A stretch of 43,218 nucleotides of DNA from Acidobacteriota bacterium (lineage in GTDB: Bacteria; Acidobacteriota; Terriglobia; Bryobacterales; Bryobacteraceae): contig JANXMS010000156.1 of assembly GCA_025354525.1 (NCBI GenBank), positions 1 to 43,218 of the forward strand, written 5' to 3'. Under the pieces are notes generated by a model. That model was not told the DNA's origin. It saw nothing but the letters and a program-made list of their open reading frames with translations, and made no database searches. The translations under genes were made by a program, and so were the position numbers. This document shows, piece by piece, positions 31,079-38,513 of this stretch. How positions within the stretch are numbered: position 1 is the first letter of the stretch; every line of letters starts with the position of its first letter.

Positions 31079-31963
31079 GTAATTTGAGAGAGGCGGAGAT
31101 CCCAGGCAACCGTATTGACGACGAGCCCGGCGGCGTAGGTGATCGTCTTACCGTTGCTCAGGGTTGCAGGGGTTTGCTCCTGCTTGACGACCTCGGGCCC
31201 GCCTACTTTGGCGTGGGTGACGTTTTCATTCCAGCGGAGCCAGTCGCCAACAGTGCTCAGCATGCCCCCTGCGTCAAAAACGTTTTCGACGGGCGTGGCC
31301 TGGGTTCAGCCTCCGGCCTTGGCTGAATTGGCAAGCGCTCGGTTCGGGACGATGGCGCGAATGTCGTCCCGCCATTGGGTTTGGGTCATCTCCAAAGGGC
31401 ACAAATATGGCCTTCTTCGTGAATTCTTGAAAGGTCGTCCCGTTGTTCAGCACGCGTTCGAGCAGGAGGGATGCGAGGTTGAATCCAGTTTTCGCGTAGC
31501 TGTAGGCGGTGCCGGAATCAAAATCGAGGGCACGCTGTTTGGCCGCAATGCGGAACAAATCCTGATTGTCGAGGACATAAGTCCATGCCGTGGTGCTGGA
31601 AAGCCGAGCGACGAGACGCCACTCGCGGAGGCCGCCGGTGTGCGAGAGGATGTGGCGAACGGTGAGCGGAGCACCGTAGTCAGGCAGTTCGGGCAGGTAT
31701 TTGCGGAGGGGGTCGTCGAGGGAGATTTTGTCTTGTTGGGCGAGGAGCAGCAGGACCGTGGCGGTGAACTCCTTGGCGACCGAGCCGCTCTCAAAAGCAG
31801 TGTCGGCGTGGATGGGTACGGCGCGTTCCAGGTGGGCCATGCCGTAGCCCGACCGTGAGGGCCACCTGGCCGTGCTGGGAGACGCCGACGGTGCTTGTTT
31901 CGATTTCGCGGGTTGGGCGCTGAGGCAGACGGCAACGGTGAGGGCGCAGAGGAGAGCTCGCGT
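31069..31963 (-). pseudogene. serine hydrolase (beta-lactamase/PBP-like), multiply broken
   Basis: Pieces of a class C beta-lactamase-type serine hydrolase run from about 31963 to the TAA at 31069. The likely signal peptide (RALLCALTVAVCLSAQ) would begin at an ACG in place of ATG. The frame then conflicts around 31850-31900, where the expected strand GVSQHGQVALTVG lies one frame away from YGMAHLERAV. The SxxK motif is in ESGSVAKEFTA, followed by LRKYLPELPDYG and RHILSHTGGLREW. A frameshift near 31395 moves the rest to MTQTQWRDDIRAIVPNRA, and a TGA near 31310 interrupts it before GGMLSTVGDWLRWNEN. With at least three lesions it is not functional. Confidence 0.88.
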
Positions 31964-32190: not shown

Positions 32191-32859
32191 ATGACTTGGC
32201 AACGACTTTATGGTGGGCTTTTCGCGATGGCTGTTTTCATCCTTCCGGCAGCGGGGCAGATTTCGCGAGAGAAGATTGAGTGGCTCGACGTTTGGATTCC
32301 TGACACGAACGACCGGGGGTTGCCTCGGGTATTGCTGGTGGGAGATTCAATCATGCGGGGCTATGGCAAGCAGGTGGAGGCGGGCTTGCAGGGGAAGGCC
32401 TACGTCGCTCGCTTGGCGACTTCGAAGAGCCTGGGGGACCCGGCGTTGCTGGATCAGGTGGGGCTGGTGCTGGGAGAGCAGAAGTTCGACATCATTCATT
32501 TCAACAATGGGATGCATGGCGATGGATATAGCGAAGAGGCCTACGCGGCGGCGCTTCCGCCGATGCTGGCACGGCTGCGGCGCGATGCGCCGGGGGCGCG
32601 GATAATGTTATGTACGACGACCGACGTCGGGGAACGGAATAACTTAGACACAGTGCTGCCAAAGACGACGCGGGTGATGCGGCGGAACGACTTAGTCACT
32701 GCATTCGCTAAGCGAGAGAAGCTCCCGGTGAATGACTTATTCGCATTGATTCAGGACCACCCGGAGTATCATGGCGCGGACGGGGTTCACTGCAACGAGA
32801 AGGGGAGCGCGGCGCTGGCGGCGCAGGTGGTTAGCGCGATTTTGAAGCTGCTGCCTTGA
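32191..32859 (+). CDS. SGNH/GDSL-type hydrolase, exported
   Basis: This 222-residue protein has a signal peptide (LYGGLFAMAVFILPAAG) and an SGNH hydrolase domain. The nucleophile block is VLLVGDSIMRGYG, with the serine in GDS. Block III is FNNGMHGDG in place of the usual GxND, and the Asp-His pair is in ADGVHCNEKGSAALA near the end. The NNGxHG variant is common in a subgroup linked to carbohydrate esters in soil bacteria (family memory). It is probably periplasmic and may deacetylate a glycan; the substrate is not shown. Its last 29 nt overlap the end of the convergent FMN oxidase gene. Confidence 0.88.
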   Translation: MTWQRLYGGLFAMAVFILPAAGQISREKIEWLDVWIPDTNDRGLPRVLLVGDSIMRGYGKQVEAGLQGKAYVARLATSKSLGDPALLDQVGLVLGEQKFDIIHFNNGMHGDGYSEEAYAAALPPMLARLRRDAPGARIMLCTTTDVGERNNLDTVLPKTTRVMRRNDLVTAFAKREKLPVNDLFALIQDHPEYHGADGVHCNEKGSAALAAQVVSAILKLLP

Positions 32860-34921
32860 GCGGTGGGCGGAGCATGTCGGGCTGGAGTTGCCGCGGCGTC
32901 ACGGCTCCGATCATGATCATGTTACGGGCCAACTCCGACTGAAGCATCTCGATCACGGCTTGGACTCCTTCTGCTCCGTAAGCGGCCAAGCCCCAGAGAG
33001 GCGGACGGGTGACGACGACGGCGGAGGCTCCGAGGATGAGCGCCTTGAGAATGTCGGTACCGCGGCGAAAGCTGCCATCGACGAGGACGGGGATGCGTCG
33101 TTGGACGGTTGCGACGATGGCGGGAAGCAGGGCGATGGAAGACAGGGGCGACCCATAGGTGGAGAGGATGAGGCCGGAGACTCCGCGGGCGATGGCGGTT
33201 TCAGCGTCGGCAGGGCGGAGGAGACCCTTCAGGACGATGGGGACGGCGACGCGTCGGCGGAAGCGGGTTAGAGCGGGCCAGTCTATCGCCTGATTGACCG
33301 GTAGCGTAATGACTAGGGCTTGAGCTCCGCTCGTGGGGGGATCGAGTTCCTGGAGAGCCGATTGCAACCAGAAGGGGCCGGGAGAGGCTGCGAGGATTTT
33401 GTCGAGCGGGTAACTGGATTGGCTGCTGATGATTTGGATGGCTTTCGCGGCGGCGGAGCCCCGGGCCATGGCGAGTTCGCCTTCCGGGTGGAAGCGCTTC
33501 TGAAGGGCGGCGGGGCCGACTACGATAGGCGCGAACATACTTTCGCCGAATAAGTTGGTGGTTAGATCGAGCTTAGTCGTATCGACCATGAGGCGGGAGC
33601 GGAAGGTAAGTCGCTCTAGGTCGGTTCGATTGCTGCCGGCGATGGCGGCGAAGACGGCGGGAGGGAGTTTGCTCTGGGCCATGGCTTCAAACTCGAGGAT
33701 GTTGACGAGTTCGCGGACCGGAGTCAGCGAGGGGGGGCGGAGGACGGGAGGGGCGACGGTGGGTTGGGGGGAGCGGATGCGTACGATGGAGGGGTTGATG
33801 GAGGCGATGGTGGGGCAGCCAGCTTCTGCCATGGCGAACATGAGTTCCTGCTGGAGAAGGGTTAGAATTCCTTTCACCCCGGCGGCACCGTACGCGGCCA
33901 GACCCCAGCGGGGGACGCGGCCAAGGCAGACGGCACTGGCTCCGAGAGCAAGCGCCTTGAGGATATCGCTGCCTCGGCGGAAGCCTCCGTCGATGAGGAT
34001 GGGGATGCGGCCTTTGACGGCAGCGACGATTTCGGGGAGGACTTCGAGGGTGGAGGGGGAATAGTCCAGGGCACGGCCACCATGATTGGAGATGATGATG
34101 CCGTCGAGGCCGCGTTCAATGCAGGTGAGGGCGGATTCGGCGGTGAGGATACCTTTGGCGAGCAGCGGGACCTTGACGAGGGGACGGATTTGGTCGAAGT
34201 AACTCCAGATGTACCAGTTGCGGTTTTGGAGGACGCGATAGGGGTTGGGGACATTACTGGGTCGAGGGGGCCGGCTGTCGGTTAAATTGTGATCGTGGAA
34301 CGGGCGCTCGTAGTAGGCCGATTGTTGGTCGATGGTGACGACGATGGCTTGTGCTCCGTTAGTTTGGGCGGTGTCGAGATAGGCTCTGGTGTCGTCGACG
34401 CTTTGGCGGGGATAGAGTTGCCACCATAAATTGCCTTTAGCGGCGGCATTGATTTTATCAAGACCGTAAGTAGCGTTATTACTGACGATCATGGGCGTTT
34501 TGGCGGCTTGGGTGGCGCCGCGAAAGGTGGCGAGTTCGCCTTCAGGATGGAGTTGGGAGTGGGCGGCGGAGGGAGCGAGGAGGAGGGGGAAAGCTAGTTT
34601 TTGACCGAAGAGTTCAATGGTCGTGTCGACGGCGGATGGTTTGGGGGAGCGGGGGAGGAGTTGGACCCAGTCGAAGGCGTCGCGGTTCCGGCGAAGGGTG
34701 AACTCGCTTTCGGCTCCGTAGGCGGTGTAGTTGTAGGCGAGGCGGGAGAGGCGGGCGTGGGCGACGGGTTCAAAGTCAAAGGCGTTGCGGAGTTCATCGA
34801 GGCGAGGAACGCGGGTGTGATCGCGAAAGGGGTCTTGCTGGGGGTGGAGAAGGGGGGAGGCCGCCAGGAGGGCGGATAGGTTGCGGAGCGCCGCTCGGCG
34901 GCTGGGTGGATAGATGGCCAT
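32831..34921 (-). CDS. double-domain FMN-dependent 2-hydroxy-acid oxidase, second domain degenerate
   Basis: This 696-residue protein is about twice the usual 350-390 of the glycolate/lactate oxidase family and contains two consecutive copies of the domain. In copy 1 (about 40-370) the flavin and catalytic residues are present: Y65, Y170 (WQLY), D198 (VTIDQQ), K256 (LAKG), H280 and R283 (ISNHGGR), and the phosphate loop DGGFRRGSDI. In copy 2 (about 400-670) only K565 and the loop DGSFRRGTDI remain. The Tyr is A426, WQLY is replaced by WLQS, and SNHGGR has become STYGSP (587-592). So copy 2 is probably catalytically dead but may still bind flavin or ligand. The N-terminus SRRAALRNLSALLAAS suggests Tat export. 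It diverges from the Xre/RES module. Confidence 0.88.
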   Translation of the reverse strand: MAIYPPSRRAALRNLSALLAASPLLHPQQDPFRDHTRVPRLDELRNAFDFEPVAHARLSRLAYNYTAYGAESEFTLRRNRDAFDWVQLLPRSPKPSAVDTTIELFGQKLAFPLLLAPSAAHSQLHPEGELATFRGATQAAKTPMIVSNNATYGLDKINAAAKGNLWWQLYPRQSVDDTRAYLDTAQTNGAQAIVVTIDQQSAYYERPFHDHNLTDSRPPRPSNVPNPYRVLQNRNWYIWSYFDQIRPLVKVPLLAKGILTAESALTCIERGLDGIIISNHGGRALDYSPSTLEVLPEIVAAVKGRIPILIDGGFRRGSDILKALALGASAVCLGRVPRWGLAAYGAAGVKGILTLLQQELMFAMAEAGCPTIASINPSIVRIRSPQPTVAPPVLRPPSLTPVRELVNILEFEAMAQSKLPPAVFAAIAGSNRTDLERLTFRSRLMVDTTKLDLTTNLFGESMFAPIVVGPAALQKRFHPEGELAMARGSAAAKAIQIISSQSSYPLDKILAASPGPFWLQSALQELDPPTSGAQALVITLPVNQAIDWPALTRFRRRVAVPIVLKGLLRPADAETAIARGVSGLILSTYGSPLSSIALLPAIVATVQRRIPVLVDGSFRRGTDILKALILGASAVVVTRPPLWGLAAYGAEGVQAVIEMLQSELARNMIMIGAVTPRQLQPDMLRPPLKAAASKSR

Positions 34922-35025: not shown

Positions 35026-35424
35026 ATGAGCGCCAGTATGAAATCAGTTGCGCCGGTGGAGGGTACCCGCTCGTTGGCGGCGCGGGAGACGTTGACGTCG
35101 GGAGTGCTGCAGGTGGCGACGTTGTTACATGTTTCGCAGGCGGATTTGGCGCGGATTCTGGGACTCAGCGCGGCCTCTATCTCACGGATGGCTTCGGGCC
35201 GCTACTTATTGGATCCAGAGGCGAAAGAGTGGCAGTTTGCGGCGTTGTTTGTACGGCTATTTCGTTCGCTCGATTCGATTACGGGAGGAAACGATGAGCT
35301 GTCGCGGCAGTGGCTGCGGAGTTACAACTCAGCGCTATCTGCCGCTCCGGCGAGTCTGCTGGGTGAGATTACTGGTCTGGTGAACGTGGTGCAATACCTT
35401 GATGCCTCCCGTGCCATCGTGTAA
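35026..35424 (+). CDS. Xre/MbcA/ParS-type antitoxin
   Basis: This 132-residue protein has an N-terminal Xre-like helix-turn-helix (VSQADLARILGLSAASISRM) and a C-terminal toxin-binding region of the MbcA/ParS (DUF2384-like) type. The latter ends in SLLGEITGLVNVVQYLDA. Such antitoxins bind and block RES-domain toxins and repress their own promoter. The toxin gene starts inside its last 23 nt, the usual order for this family. Its own promoter and Shine-Dalgarno are visible upstream. The HTH and context make this assignment strong. Confidence 0.88.
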   Translation: MSASMKSVAPVEGTRSLAARETLTSGVLQVATLLHVSQADLARILGLSAASISRMASGRYLLDPEAKEWQFAALFVRLFRSLDSITGGNDELSRQWLRSYNSALSAAPASLLGEITGLVNVVQYLDASRAIV

Positions 35425-36118
35425 GGTGATTGCCGGGGCTAGGGGTGAACGGGCGTTCAAAGCTTGGCGCGCGGTGGAGGCGCAGCATGTGGTTTCGACG
35501 CTGCGGCTGACGGGGAGCGACCCGGTTCGGCAGGAGTTGCTGGAGCGGATTTTGGAGGAGAGCAAGCCGACGTTACCGGAGGGGGCTCGGCAGCTTCATT
35601 ACTTATTGGCGACTCCATTTCGGTACCCGCCATCGGGGCGCGGGTCGCGGTTTCGGGCTTGGCCAGATGCGGGGGTTTTGTATGCGGCGCGCGAGCGGCG
35701 GACGGCCTGCGCGGAGATGGGTTACTGGCGTTGGCGGTTTTTGCGGGATAGCGAGGGGATGACAACGATGCCGGCGGCGGCGCTGACCGTTTTTCAGTTG
35801 GGGGCGGGGGGCGAAGGGATTGACCTGACGCTGGAGCCGCTGCGGGCGTGGCGGAAGGCTTGGACGAATCCGGTGGGCTATGGGCCGACGCAGGAGTTGG
35901 GACGCGAGGCTAGGGCGTTAGCGATGGAGTGGATTGCTTACGAATCGGTGCGGGATCCGGAGGCGGGGCTTTGCTATGCGGTGCTGGATCCGAGGGCGCT
36001 TCGGCTGCGGCAGCCGTTAGCGCGGGAGACTTGGTATTTGACGGTGACGGGGAGCGGGGCGATTTGGCAGCGGGAGCGGCAGCGTTTCGTTTTTTCCTTC
36101 GGCGAAATCGCTTTTTGA
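35402..36118 (+). CDS. RES-domain NAD+-degrading toxin
   Basis: From the ATG at 35402 this is a 238-residue protein; a TTG one codon earlier is less likely. The RES domain covers about residues 60-215. It begins RYPPSGRGSRFRAW and continues GVLYAARERRTACAEMGYW, holding the conserved Arg, Tyr and Glu of the active site, and ends with YESVRDPEAGLCYAVLDP. RES toxins of the MbcT/ParT type break down or transfer ADP-ribose from NAD+, stopping growth. The gene overlaps the antitoxin by 23 nt. Length and motifs look intact, so the pair may be active, in contrast to the broken toxin-antitoxin remnants nearby. Confidence 0.88.
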   Translation: MPPVPSCKVIAGARGERAFKAWRAVEAQHVVSTLRLTGSDPVRQELLERILEESKPTLPEGARQLHYLLATPFRYPPSGRGSRFRAWPDAGVLYAARERRTACAEMGYWRWRFLRDSEGMTTMPAAALTVFQLGAGGEGIDLTLEPLRAWRKAWTNPVGYGPTQELGREARALAMEWIAYESVRDPEAGLCYAVLDPRALRLRQPLARETWYLTVTGSGAIWQRERQRFVFSFGEIAF

Positions 36119-37084: not shown

Positions 37085-37142
37085 GCAATACGCGCTGAAG
37101 AGGGCGAGTTAATCGCGGGTAACCTTGTGATATTGTTTGCGC

Positions 37143-38513
37143 ATGTACCGTAGAAGCTTTTTGGCCTCCGCACTGGGAGCCGTGGCCGCTCCGAAACGGC
37201 CCCTGAATGTGCTGTTTGTTGTTTCCGATGACCTGACGTCCACCGCGCTGGGGTGCTATGGGCATCCGTTGGTGCAATCGCCGCATGTCGACTCGCTCGC
37301 GCGGAATGGGGTTCGGTTTGATCGGGCGTATTGCCAATATGCCCTGTGCGCTCCTTCTCGGGCTAGTTTTCTTACCGGGATGCGTCCGGATTCTACCCGG
37401 GTTTTGACTAACGGGCCGGACTTTCGGGAGTTTCTTCCTAGCCATGTGACCATGCCGCAGTTGTTTAAGAACAATGGCTACCAGGCGATCCGGGAGGGCA
37501 AGATGTTCCATATGGGCGTGCCCGGGACCGTCGGCACCGATAAGTGGCAAGACGCCGTAAGCTGGACCCACAACGGGAGCCCACAGGGGAAGGAACAGAA
37601 CTCCAAGGGCGAAGGGAAGAATCTGACCCCGCACATCGGGCCGGGCGTGGGAATGCAGTATGTGAAAACTCCCGATGCGAGCGAACAGGCGGACTTCGAT
37701 GCGGCTAATCGGGCGATTGGCCATTTAGAAAAACATAGGAATGAGCCGTTCTTTTTGGGGTTGGGGTTTGTGCGGCCGCATGTTCCGTTCGTGGCACCGA
37801 GCGAGTATTTCGATAAGTATCCGCTGGCGAAGATCAGGCTGGCGGAGAGGCGGGCCAATGACTTGGATGATATTCCAGCCGTGGTGGCACGGACGCTGGG
37901 TAATACGGCTGGCAATATGAAGATGAACGAAGATCAGCAGATGGAGGCGCTGCGGGCTTACTATGCCGCGATCTCGTTTATGGATGCGCAGTTGGGGCGG
38001 GTGCTGGGGACACTGGATCGGTTGGGGCTGCGGGAGAACACGGTGATTGTGTTCCAGGGTGACCATGGATGGCACCTGGGCGAACATACGTTTTGGCAGA
38101 AACGCAGCTTGATGGAGGAGTCGGCGAAAGTGCCGTTGGTGATTTCTGCTCCGGGGCGGAAGGCGCGGGGACAGGGATGCCGGGCGCTGGTGGAGTTGGT
38201 AGATGTGTATCCGACGGTGGCGGGGCTGTGTGGGTTGGTGGCACCGGCTAATTTGGAGGGGAAGACGATGCAGCCGCTGCTGGATGACCCGAAACGGGCG
38301 CATAAGATCGTCGCTCGGACGCAGTTGACTACGCCGAAGGTGGATGGCCGGGCGGTAAGGACGGCGGATTTTCGATATATCCGATGGAAGGCGGAGGGGG
38401 AGACGGCGGAGGAGCTTTATGACCATCGGAAGGATGCGCGGGAGTTTACGAACTTAGTGAATGACAGGCGGTATGCGGCGGAGTTGGGGCGGCATCGGGC
38501 GATGGTTCCTTAA
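37143..38513 (+). CDS. sulfatase (iduronate-2-sulfatase-like), Tat-exported
   Basis: The ATG at 37143 gives 456 residues beginning MYRRSFLASALG, a Tat-like leader; an in-frame TTG two codons earlier is less likely. The metal-binding start of the sulfatase domain is LNVLFVVSDDLTSTALGCYG. The active-site motif is CAPSRASFLTG, in which the cysteine would be oxidised to formylglycine. Later metal ligands are in VFQGDHGWHLGEH, and the family's LPQLFKNNGY...GKMFHMG segment is present as PQLFKNNGYQAI and GKMFHMG. This pattern is closest to iduronate-2-sulfatase-like members, which remove sulfate from polysaccharides or sugars. No sulfatase-maturating enzyme is in the window. The stop overlaps the next start by 1 nt. 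Confidence 0.92.
   Translation: MYRRSFLASALGAVAAPKRPLNVLFVVSDDLTSTALGCYGHPLVQSPHVDSLARNGVRFDRAYCQYALCAPSRASFLTGMRPDSTRVLTNGPDFREFLPSHVTMPQLFKNNGYQAIREGKMFHMGVPGTVGTDKWQDAVSWTHNGSPQGKEQNSKGEGKNLTPHIGPGVGMQYVKTPDASEQADFDAANRAIGHLEKHRNEPFFLGLGFVRPHVPFVAPSEYFDKYPLAKIRLAERRANDLDDIPAVVARTLGNTAGNMKMNEDQQMEALRAYYAAISFMDAQLGRVLGTLDRLGLRENTVIVFQGDHGWHLGEHTFWQKRSLMEESAKVPLVISAPGRKARGQGCRALVELVDVYPTVAGLCGLVAPANLEGKTMQPLLDDPKRAHKIVARTQLTTPKVDGRAVRTADFRYIRWKAEGETAEELYDHRKDAREFTNLVNDRRYAAELGRHRAMVP

Follow-up and report, generated by a model that had tools for sequence, protein, structure and literature searches.

A predicted, fused FMN-dependent alpha-hydroxy-acid oxidase of a soil acidobacterium and the conserved, apparently inactive family of probable partners to which its second half belongs

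The window, 43,218 nucleotides of contig JANXMS010000156.1 (assembly GCA_025354525.1) from an Acidobacteriota bacterium of the family Bryobacteraceae, carries a gene in which two FMN_dh (PF01070) domains are joined in one chain, the second of them stripped of most of the residues expected at the active site. The question raised by this locus is why the second half is kept, as a decaying duplicate or in some non-catalytic role (regulation, dimer-like pairing or ligand binding) within an exported oxidase, the latter having been the original prediction. The reading frame spanned 696 codons from ATG to stop with zero internal stops and was thus free of frameshifts, as had been claimed. In a Pfam search PF01070 matched the entire chain in three stretches (2.3e-163, 543.7 bits, curated cut-off 24.9), which upheld the assignment of both halves to domains of the glycolate/lactate-oxidase type. 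The whole fused chain missed the NCBIfam cut-offs for L-lactate oxidase (TIGR02708, 279.4 vs 645.5 bits), LldD (NF033901, 270.1 vs 550 bits) and MftD (TIGR03966, 303.7 vs 470.85 bits), as well as that for PRK11197 L-lactate dehydrogenase (309.4 vs 376 bits). Among solved structures, the best sequence matches were tandem lactate oxidase chains, followed by glycolate oxidases. The tandem L-lactate oxidases 7f20 and 7f22 resemble the window protein in having two FMN_dh copies per chain of 720–736 residues; their copies, however, are nearly identical in alignments and both have the active-site motifs, whereas half 2 of the window appears to be a distant dead paralogue, and the 7f20/7f22 chains look engineered. 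Half 1 and proteins like it are called A below, and half 2 and proteins like it are called B.

Table 1. Parts of the fusion gene and the basis on which each was assigned (positions in the window).
Feature	Position	Strand	Basis
A-B fusion gene, 696 aa, two FMN_dh (PF01070) halves	32831..34921	-	ORF and Pfam profile
Twin-arginine-like signal (PSRRAALRNLSALLAASPLL), residues 1-28	34838..34921	-	Sequence; same kind of N-terminus in A genes of other genomes
Half 1 = A domain, residues 54-381, with all seven catalytic/substrate residues	33779..34762	-	Profile and alignment
Pro-rich linker, residues 384-402	33716..33772	-	In split relatives, stop codon of A and start of B lie here
Half 2 = B domain, residues 403-686	32864..33715	-	Catalytic residues lost; FMN-phosphate loop, arginines and Lys kept

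Residues were compared in an alignment of 62 A, 62 B and 74 other FMN_dh proteins (39, 39 and 74 in a first pass, from which identical-core rows were dropped). Seven positions of half 1 were scored, Y65, Y170, D198, R206, K256, H280 and R283, which we take to be Y24, Y129, D157, R164, K230, H254 and R257 of glycolate oxidase (GOX); their roles are likewise assumed from that enzyme. By this seven-residue test half 1 is predicted to be catalytic (7/7, including the six residues reported as intact beforehand) and half 2 is not, K565 being the only one that it keeps (1/7). The equivalents proposed earlier for half 2 stood at A426 (for Y65), K565 (K256), Y589 (H280) and P592 (R283), and the residue given only as a non-Asp at D198 was P541; the counterpart of Y170, by contrast, was not S521 and should be A522, because Q-L-Y aligns with Q-S-A. 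The seventh residue, R206, was deleted in half 2. The phosphate loop DGSFRRG was present there as described (D615-G621).

An assembly artefact was ruled out by another species of the genus (G012), 84% identical and fused likewise in a 686-aa open frame. A search for other members of about 700 residues, as had been proposed, thus returned the same fusion in G012, and a further one on a second branch, in another genus (G153, 744-aa frame). In G006 a matching B half stayed open up to the contig end. When 101 genomes (own and relatives) were searched with half 2 and with the whole protein, most genomes that had a good half-2 match among those listed carried the halves as two neighbouring genes, an A gene of ~390 aa and a B gene of about 280–400 aa. 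Fifty-four such two-gene pairs were examined, 49 from the order and five on named contigs. All 54 were co-directional. In 37 the stop and start codons overlapped by 4 bp, with the ATG or GTG of B on the TGA of A ([AG]TGA), and 15 others had the same A-B order with offsets of -1 to +106 bp; the remaining two were in B-A order with an 8-bp overlap, on contigs labelled Alphaproteobacteria. These reverse-order pairs (L066 and L068) come from MAGs whose label was taken as given, and a third is L211 (G702). Stop-codon readthrough from A into B (many listed A matches carry '1 TGA') was rejected, because B is read in a different frame in 37/54 pairs, from a start codon of its own that overlaps the stop of A.

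Since the 54 pairs were chosen as adjacent hits, their adjacency is no independent evidence, and the fair figure is that obtained from A genes. An A-only profile with a threshold of at least 500 bits, chosen after the scores were known, retrieved 55 genes in 53 of 257 genomes of the order, the next match scoring 470 bits. B adjoined 50 of these 55 A genes (48 among the pairs examined above, plus G239:C299 and G168) and was fused to three (G000, the window genome, G012 and G153). One further A was unlinked, with B elsewhere in the same genome (G068), and one was solo (G239:C36) in a genome holding another pair, cut by a contig end (G239:C299). B was therefore present in 53/53 strong-A genomes, although damaged in one (G168), where it adjoins A but has lost ~90 aa from its middle. 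The deletion in this gene (L216) is in frame and spans the Lys and the phosphate loop; real loss and assembly collapse are both possible. Because relatives keep both parts as neighbouring linked genes, the dead copy is suggested to be a needed partner rather than junk.

Few candidates were scored per genome (7–8 in the order searches, 5 in the class and phylum samples), so absences weigh less than presences. Six further genomes had A-like matches only, at 454–470 bits, and no B was found beside such genes in the three loci inspected (G040, G259 and G260). In G006, G011 and G061, B occurred without a full A, and contig ends cut the loci there. G277, labelled Vicinamibacterales and outside the 53-genome set, had both A and B, more than 1 Mb apart; its B (L191, G277:C1) and that of G068 (L192, G068:C14) adjoin no A although the genome has one. 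L192, in which the Asp, His and Arg are retained, resembles an early step of the loss. All 37 genomes with a match at 1e-100 in a class sample of 399 belonged to the order, while 5 of 396 matched in a phylum sample, and further families of this phylum supplied three more pairs (G615, G729 and, in B-A order, G702). Outside the order, the A-B pair is patchy.

Phylogenetic analysis was done on 95 rows, comprising 38 B, 38 labelled A (including the unpaired L058 and L071) and 19 of the 74 other proteins, after identical-core rows had been dropped. All 38 B fell on one side of a branch with an SH-aLRT of 99, and the 36 paired-type A formed one group, also supported at 99. Judged by this tree, B is an old family in its own right, and half 2 is a member of it. 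A topology placing A and B together was not rejected (p 0.775), nor was one joining B to a solo Bryobacterales group (p 0.762), and both constrained topologies scored above the quick free tree. On the sequences compared here, A and B are an old, conserved gene pair that became fused late, which would mean that B lost its active site while it was still a separate gene.

Selection was estimated by pairwise Nei-Gojobori dN/dS, in which single values are rough, as several dS exceeded 1 and the G012-G006 comparison was almost without changes. Between the window and G012 the ratio was 0.111 for A and 0.193 for B. Among 21 B comparisons two were saturated, 18 lay at 0.066–0.273 and one, between the distant G000 and G153, reached 0.470, with 0.309 for A of the same two genomes. 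B exceeded A in 15 of the 18 comparisons in which both were finite, and it tolerates indels; by these ratios B is constrained, though less than A. The faster change of B and the internally deleted copy in G168 are what would be expected of a recent duplicate that is decaying while carried by its operon or fusion. We nevertheless regard such decay as very improbable: dN/dS was well below 1 (18 of 19 finite values within the range above), all B in the tree shared one side of a well-supported branch, and B was found in every strong-A genome of the order as well as in three genomes from other parts of the phylum. The original prediction had named neutral evolution of half 2 and a lack of fused relatives as the outcomes that would point to recent decay, and neither was observed; half 2 is under purifying selection. 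Distances among A and among B were correlated over 55 pairs (r = 0.72, with 0/1000 permutations as high; G011 and n065 were omitted, their A being truncated by a contig end), a correlation which, like the co-occurrence, is also expected from joint inheritance of the operon.

In a concatenated tree of the same 55 pairs, the split pair G202 was the sister of the window plus G012 (99/95), with G153 outside (100/99). The fused state thus sat on two branches and needed two changes, and 0% of 200 bootstrap trees needed only one. Given that G202 shows the usual 4-bp overlap and that its B begins in a signal-like way, two fusions seem likelier than a single one that was later split again. The B start and signal were absent in both fusions, and their linkers differed; the GEPTGR stretch of B was still found in G153 and was absent from the window.

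The loss seen in half 2 was a property of the whole B family. All seven residues (Tyr or Phe allowed at Y65) were found in 60/62 A (contig ends truncate the remaining two) and in 40 of the 74 other FMN_dh proteins, with six in 33 more. The count in B was 0 in one protein, 1 in 27, 2 in 10, 3 in 17 and 4 in 7, and never above 4. The Y65 equivalent was Tyr or Phe in 0/62 B, Asp remained at D198 in 1/62, Arg at R206 in 3/62 and Arg at R283 in 10/62. Loss was graded, with Tyr still found at Y170 (GOX Tyr129) in 28/62 and His at H280 (GOX His254) in 24/62. Deletions were also common: nine residues are missing after the first Tyr in 55/62 B, which have 7 there against 16 in A, and the stretch from beta4 to beta5, including loop 4, was shorter than 50 residues in 60/62 B, as against at least 57 in A except for the truncated G011. 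The B of G073, G078 and G068, which branch together outside other B (support 83; the rest 99), had His in place of the first Tyr and kept the nine-residue segment, as did the B of G188. The pattern in the first three fits a stepwise loss in B that probably started at the first Tyr.

The flavin side was much better preserved. In B the FMN-phosphate arginines R316 and R335 were kept in 62/62, G317 was Gly in 62/62, D311 was Asp in 61/62, the flavin-contact Lys at K256 was found in 60/62, and both Gln at Q168 (GOX Gln127) and the Thr/Ser155 equivalent in 58/62; all six scored flavin-side residues (K256, R316, R335, G317, D311 and Q168) occurred together in 57/62. Relaxed positions were S147, the GOX Ser106 equivalent (Ser in 30/62), and G334, which directly precedes the last phosphate Arg (Gly in 18/62). 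As far as the alignment tells, the substrate side is lost in B and much of the flavin side is kept. This pattern, with the arginines, Lys, Gln127 and Thr/Ser155 retained and the substrate site gone, is what would be seen if B were a flavin-loaded second redox centre, passing electrons from reduced A to an external acceptor in a two-flavin dehydrogenase. Yet among 22 pair loci the commonest additional gene family was present in just 6 (barring antisense ORFs on A and B themselves), so that no linked acceptor was seen; Ser106 and the phosphate-loop Gly are relaxed, and the retained residues may merely hold the fold or a structural FMN. We consider electron transfer through B unlikely; if it were true, several Acidobacteriota lineages would possess a periplasmic alpha-hydroxy-acid dehydrogenase of a two-subunit class not recognised so far. 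About as doubtful is a role for B as a ligand sensor, whose altered pocket would bind another small molecule and control A allosterically: in its favour, B has exchanged its substrate-side residues and shortened loop 4 and retains the barrel and phosphate site, but the replacements vary widely, with eleven residues at the Y65 equivalent across the 62 B, which is unlike one conserved ligand site. Less probable still would be catalysis of a different reaction by B through other residues, for which the kept FMN-phosphate site and Lys could serve, since no replacement residue was invariant across B at the active-site positions examined.

Structure prediction agreed with the claim that half 2 keeps the overall fold. 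Because split B proteins were aligned to half 1 when they shared an alignment with split A and fused proteins, B was given a model of its own, and that of the fusion was restricted to fused and A rows. The AlphaFold2 model of the B half, made with 25 B rows, had a pLDDT of 92.5 and a pTM of 0.91, and its best PDB matches were glycolate oxidase and HAO1, with TM scores of 0.85–0.88 normalised to the query, indicating a glycolate-oxidase-like fold. In the model the strands at 123-128 and 141-145 have no helix between them, and the second is followed by a short stretch, which indicates a missing or trimmed barrel helix and loop 4. The fusion model reached a pTM of 0.52 and a mean pLDDT of 76.6, and the relative placement of the halves was not fixed by it.

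The description of the oxidase as exported rests on the twin-arginine-like N-terminus, which carries SRRAALRNL in the window, together with a TatC gene scoring above its cut-off in the genome; by these sequence features the protein is a predicted Tat substrate. With A starts chosen upstream of the RR, an RR plus a hydrophobic stretch was found in 52/54 A, and the remaining two are truncated at contig ends. B starts were taken from the overlap or the nearest start codon, and 33/54 B likewise carried RR and a hydrophobic stretch. Neither feature was present in 14/54 B, each beside a signal-bearing A (G111, G194, G117, G118, G116, G119, G188, G262, G193, G109, G107, G120, G105 and G121; G279, whose start is doubtful, was left out of this count). 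In the Tat hitchhiker complexes HybOC and PaoABC, as outlined in an excerpt of PMC4273604, a signal-less partner is carried by the twin-arginine-bearing subunit. By analogy, a signal-less B may be exported as a passenger of A. The likeness to what that excerpt describes lies in the signal being on one subunit, as for the 14 B above; the pairs here differ in that most B (33/54) keep their own RR and hydrophobic stretch, and that co-export would be deduced from genes.

Alpha-hydroxy-acid oxidases such as glycolate oxidase, lactate oxidase and flavocytochrome b2 are usually described as oligomers of one catalytic chain. The window protein and its relatives resemble this PF01070 family, which also includes mandelate dehydrogenase, in the full catalytic set of half 1 and in the barrel and FMN-phosphate site shared by half 2; unlike members as usually described, they have a seemingly dead paralogue as a constant partner and a twin-arginine-like signal on A. 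That B has some selected partner role seems to us highly probable, and our preferred reading, with a probability of roughly 0.65, is a two-subunit exported alpha-hydroxy-acid oxidase or dehydrogenase in which B is a dead structural or regulatory partner. Likelihoods given here for the roles of B are judgements, and the roles overlap. The fusion gene would then be a single-chain version of a two-subunit, Tat-exported, FMN-dependent enzyme, with A as the catalytic subunit carrying out FMN-dependent oxidation of a 2-hydroxy acid in the periplasm. As an ancient paralogue, B would have kept the barrel and the FMN-phosphate site while losing the residues for substrate binding and proton abstraction, together with most of loop 4 and the nine-residue segment. 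Produced together, from overlapping genes or as one chain, A and B would most likely assemble in the cytoplasm into a unit that replaces the all-catalytic oligomer and leaves through the signal on A. From these patterns we infer a physical complex, flavin binding by B, co-export and an effect of B on A. The kept FMN-phosphate site may be compatible with a structural FMN or with an electron relay.

The nearest precedent is probably bacterial luciferase, whose LuxA and LuxB are encoded by adjacent genes and remain functional as LuxA-LuxB fusions. Its two homologous subunits are thought to stem from duplication, with the active site and an inserted mobile loop in alpha, according to the portion of PMC8508739 that treats them. 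Like LuxA/LuxB, A and B would be a homologous pair in which one member, here B, has neither active site nor mobile loop; they differ in belonging to another flavoprotein family and in the FMN-phosphate arginines that B keeps, and their complex is a predicted one. As LuxB does for LuxA, B most likely stabilises A and shapes the oligomer and the active-site lid. Pseudoenzyme partners are already known, and what appears to be new is a conserved one in this flavoenzyme family, in both fused and split form. No report on such a pair or family was found in the full-text open-licence literature; subscription papers were outside that scope, so absence from print is unproven. A conserved dead partner with much of its flavin site preserved offers a natural experiment on whether an inactive copy serves stability, lid control, export or relay, and as the pair occurs naturally both split and fused, its stoichiometry and interface could be probed with soluble proteins in laboratory strains. 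As B still matches PF01070, automatic annotation is likely to call it an oxidase and to miss the partnership.

Around the fusion gene, a convergent GDSL-like hydrolase gene (32191-32859, +) overlaps its 3' end by 29 bp with its own 3' end, and a RES-domain / Xre-MbcA-ParS antitoxin pair (35026-36118, +), probably a toxin-antitoxin module, lies divergently and directly upstream. A beta-lactamase-family (PF00144) ORF at 31277-31840 (-) covers only profile positions 36-177 of 329 and looks truncated or frameshifted. A larger operon around A and B was ruled out for the loci compared, the commonest neighbour being a sulfatase family found in 6/22 loci at differing positions. The window has its sulfatase gene at 37137-38513 (+), and sulfatase-family ORFs lie near the pair in five other loci (L061, L141, L144, L147 and L151).
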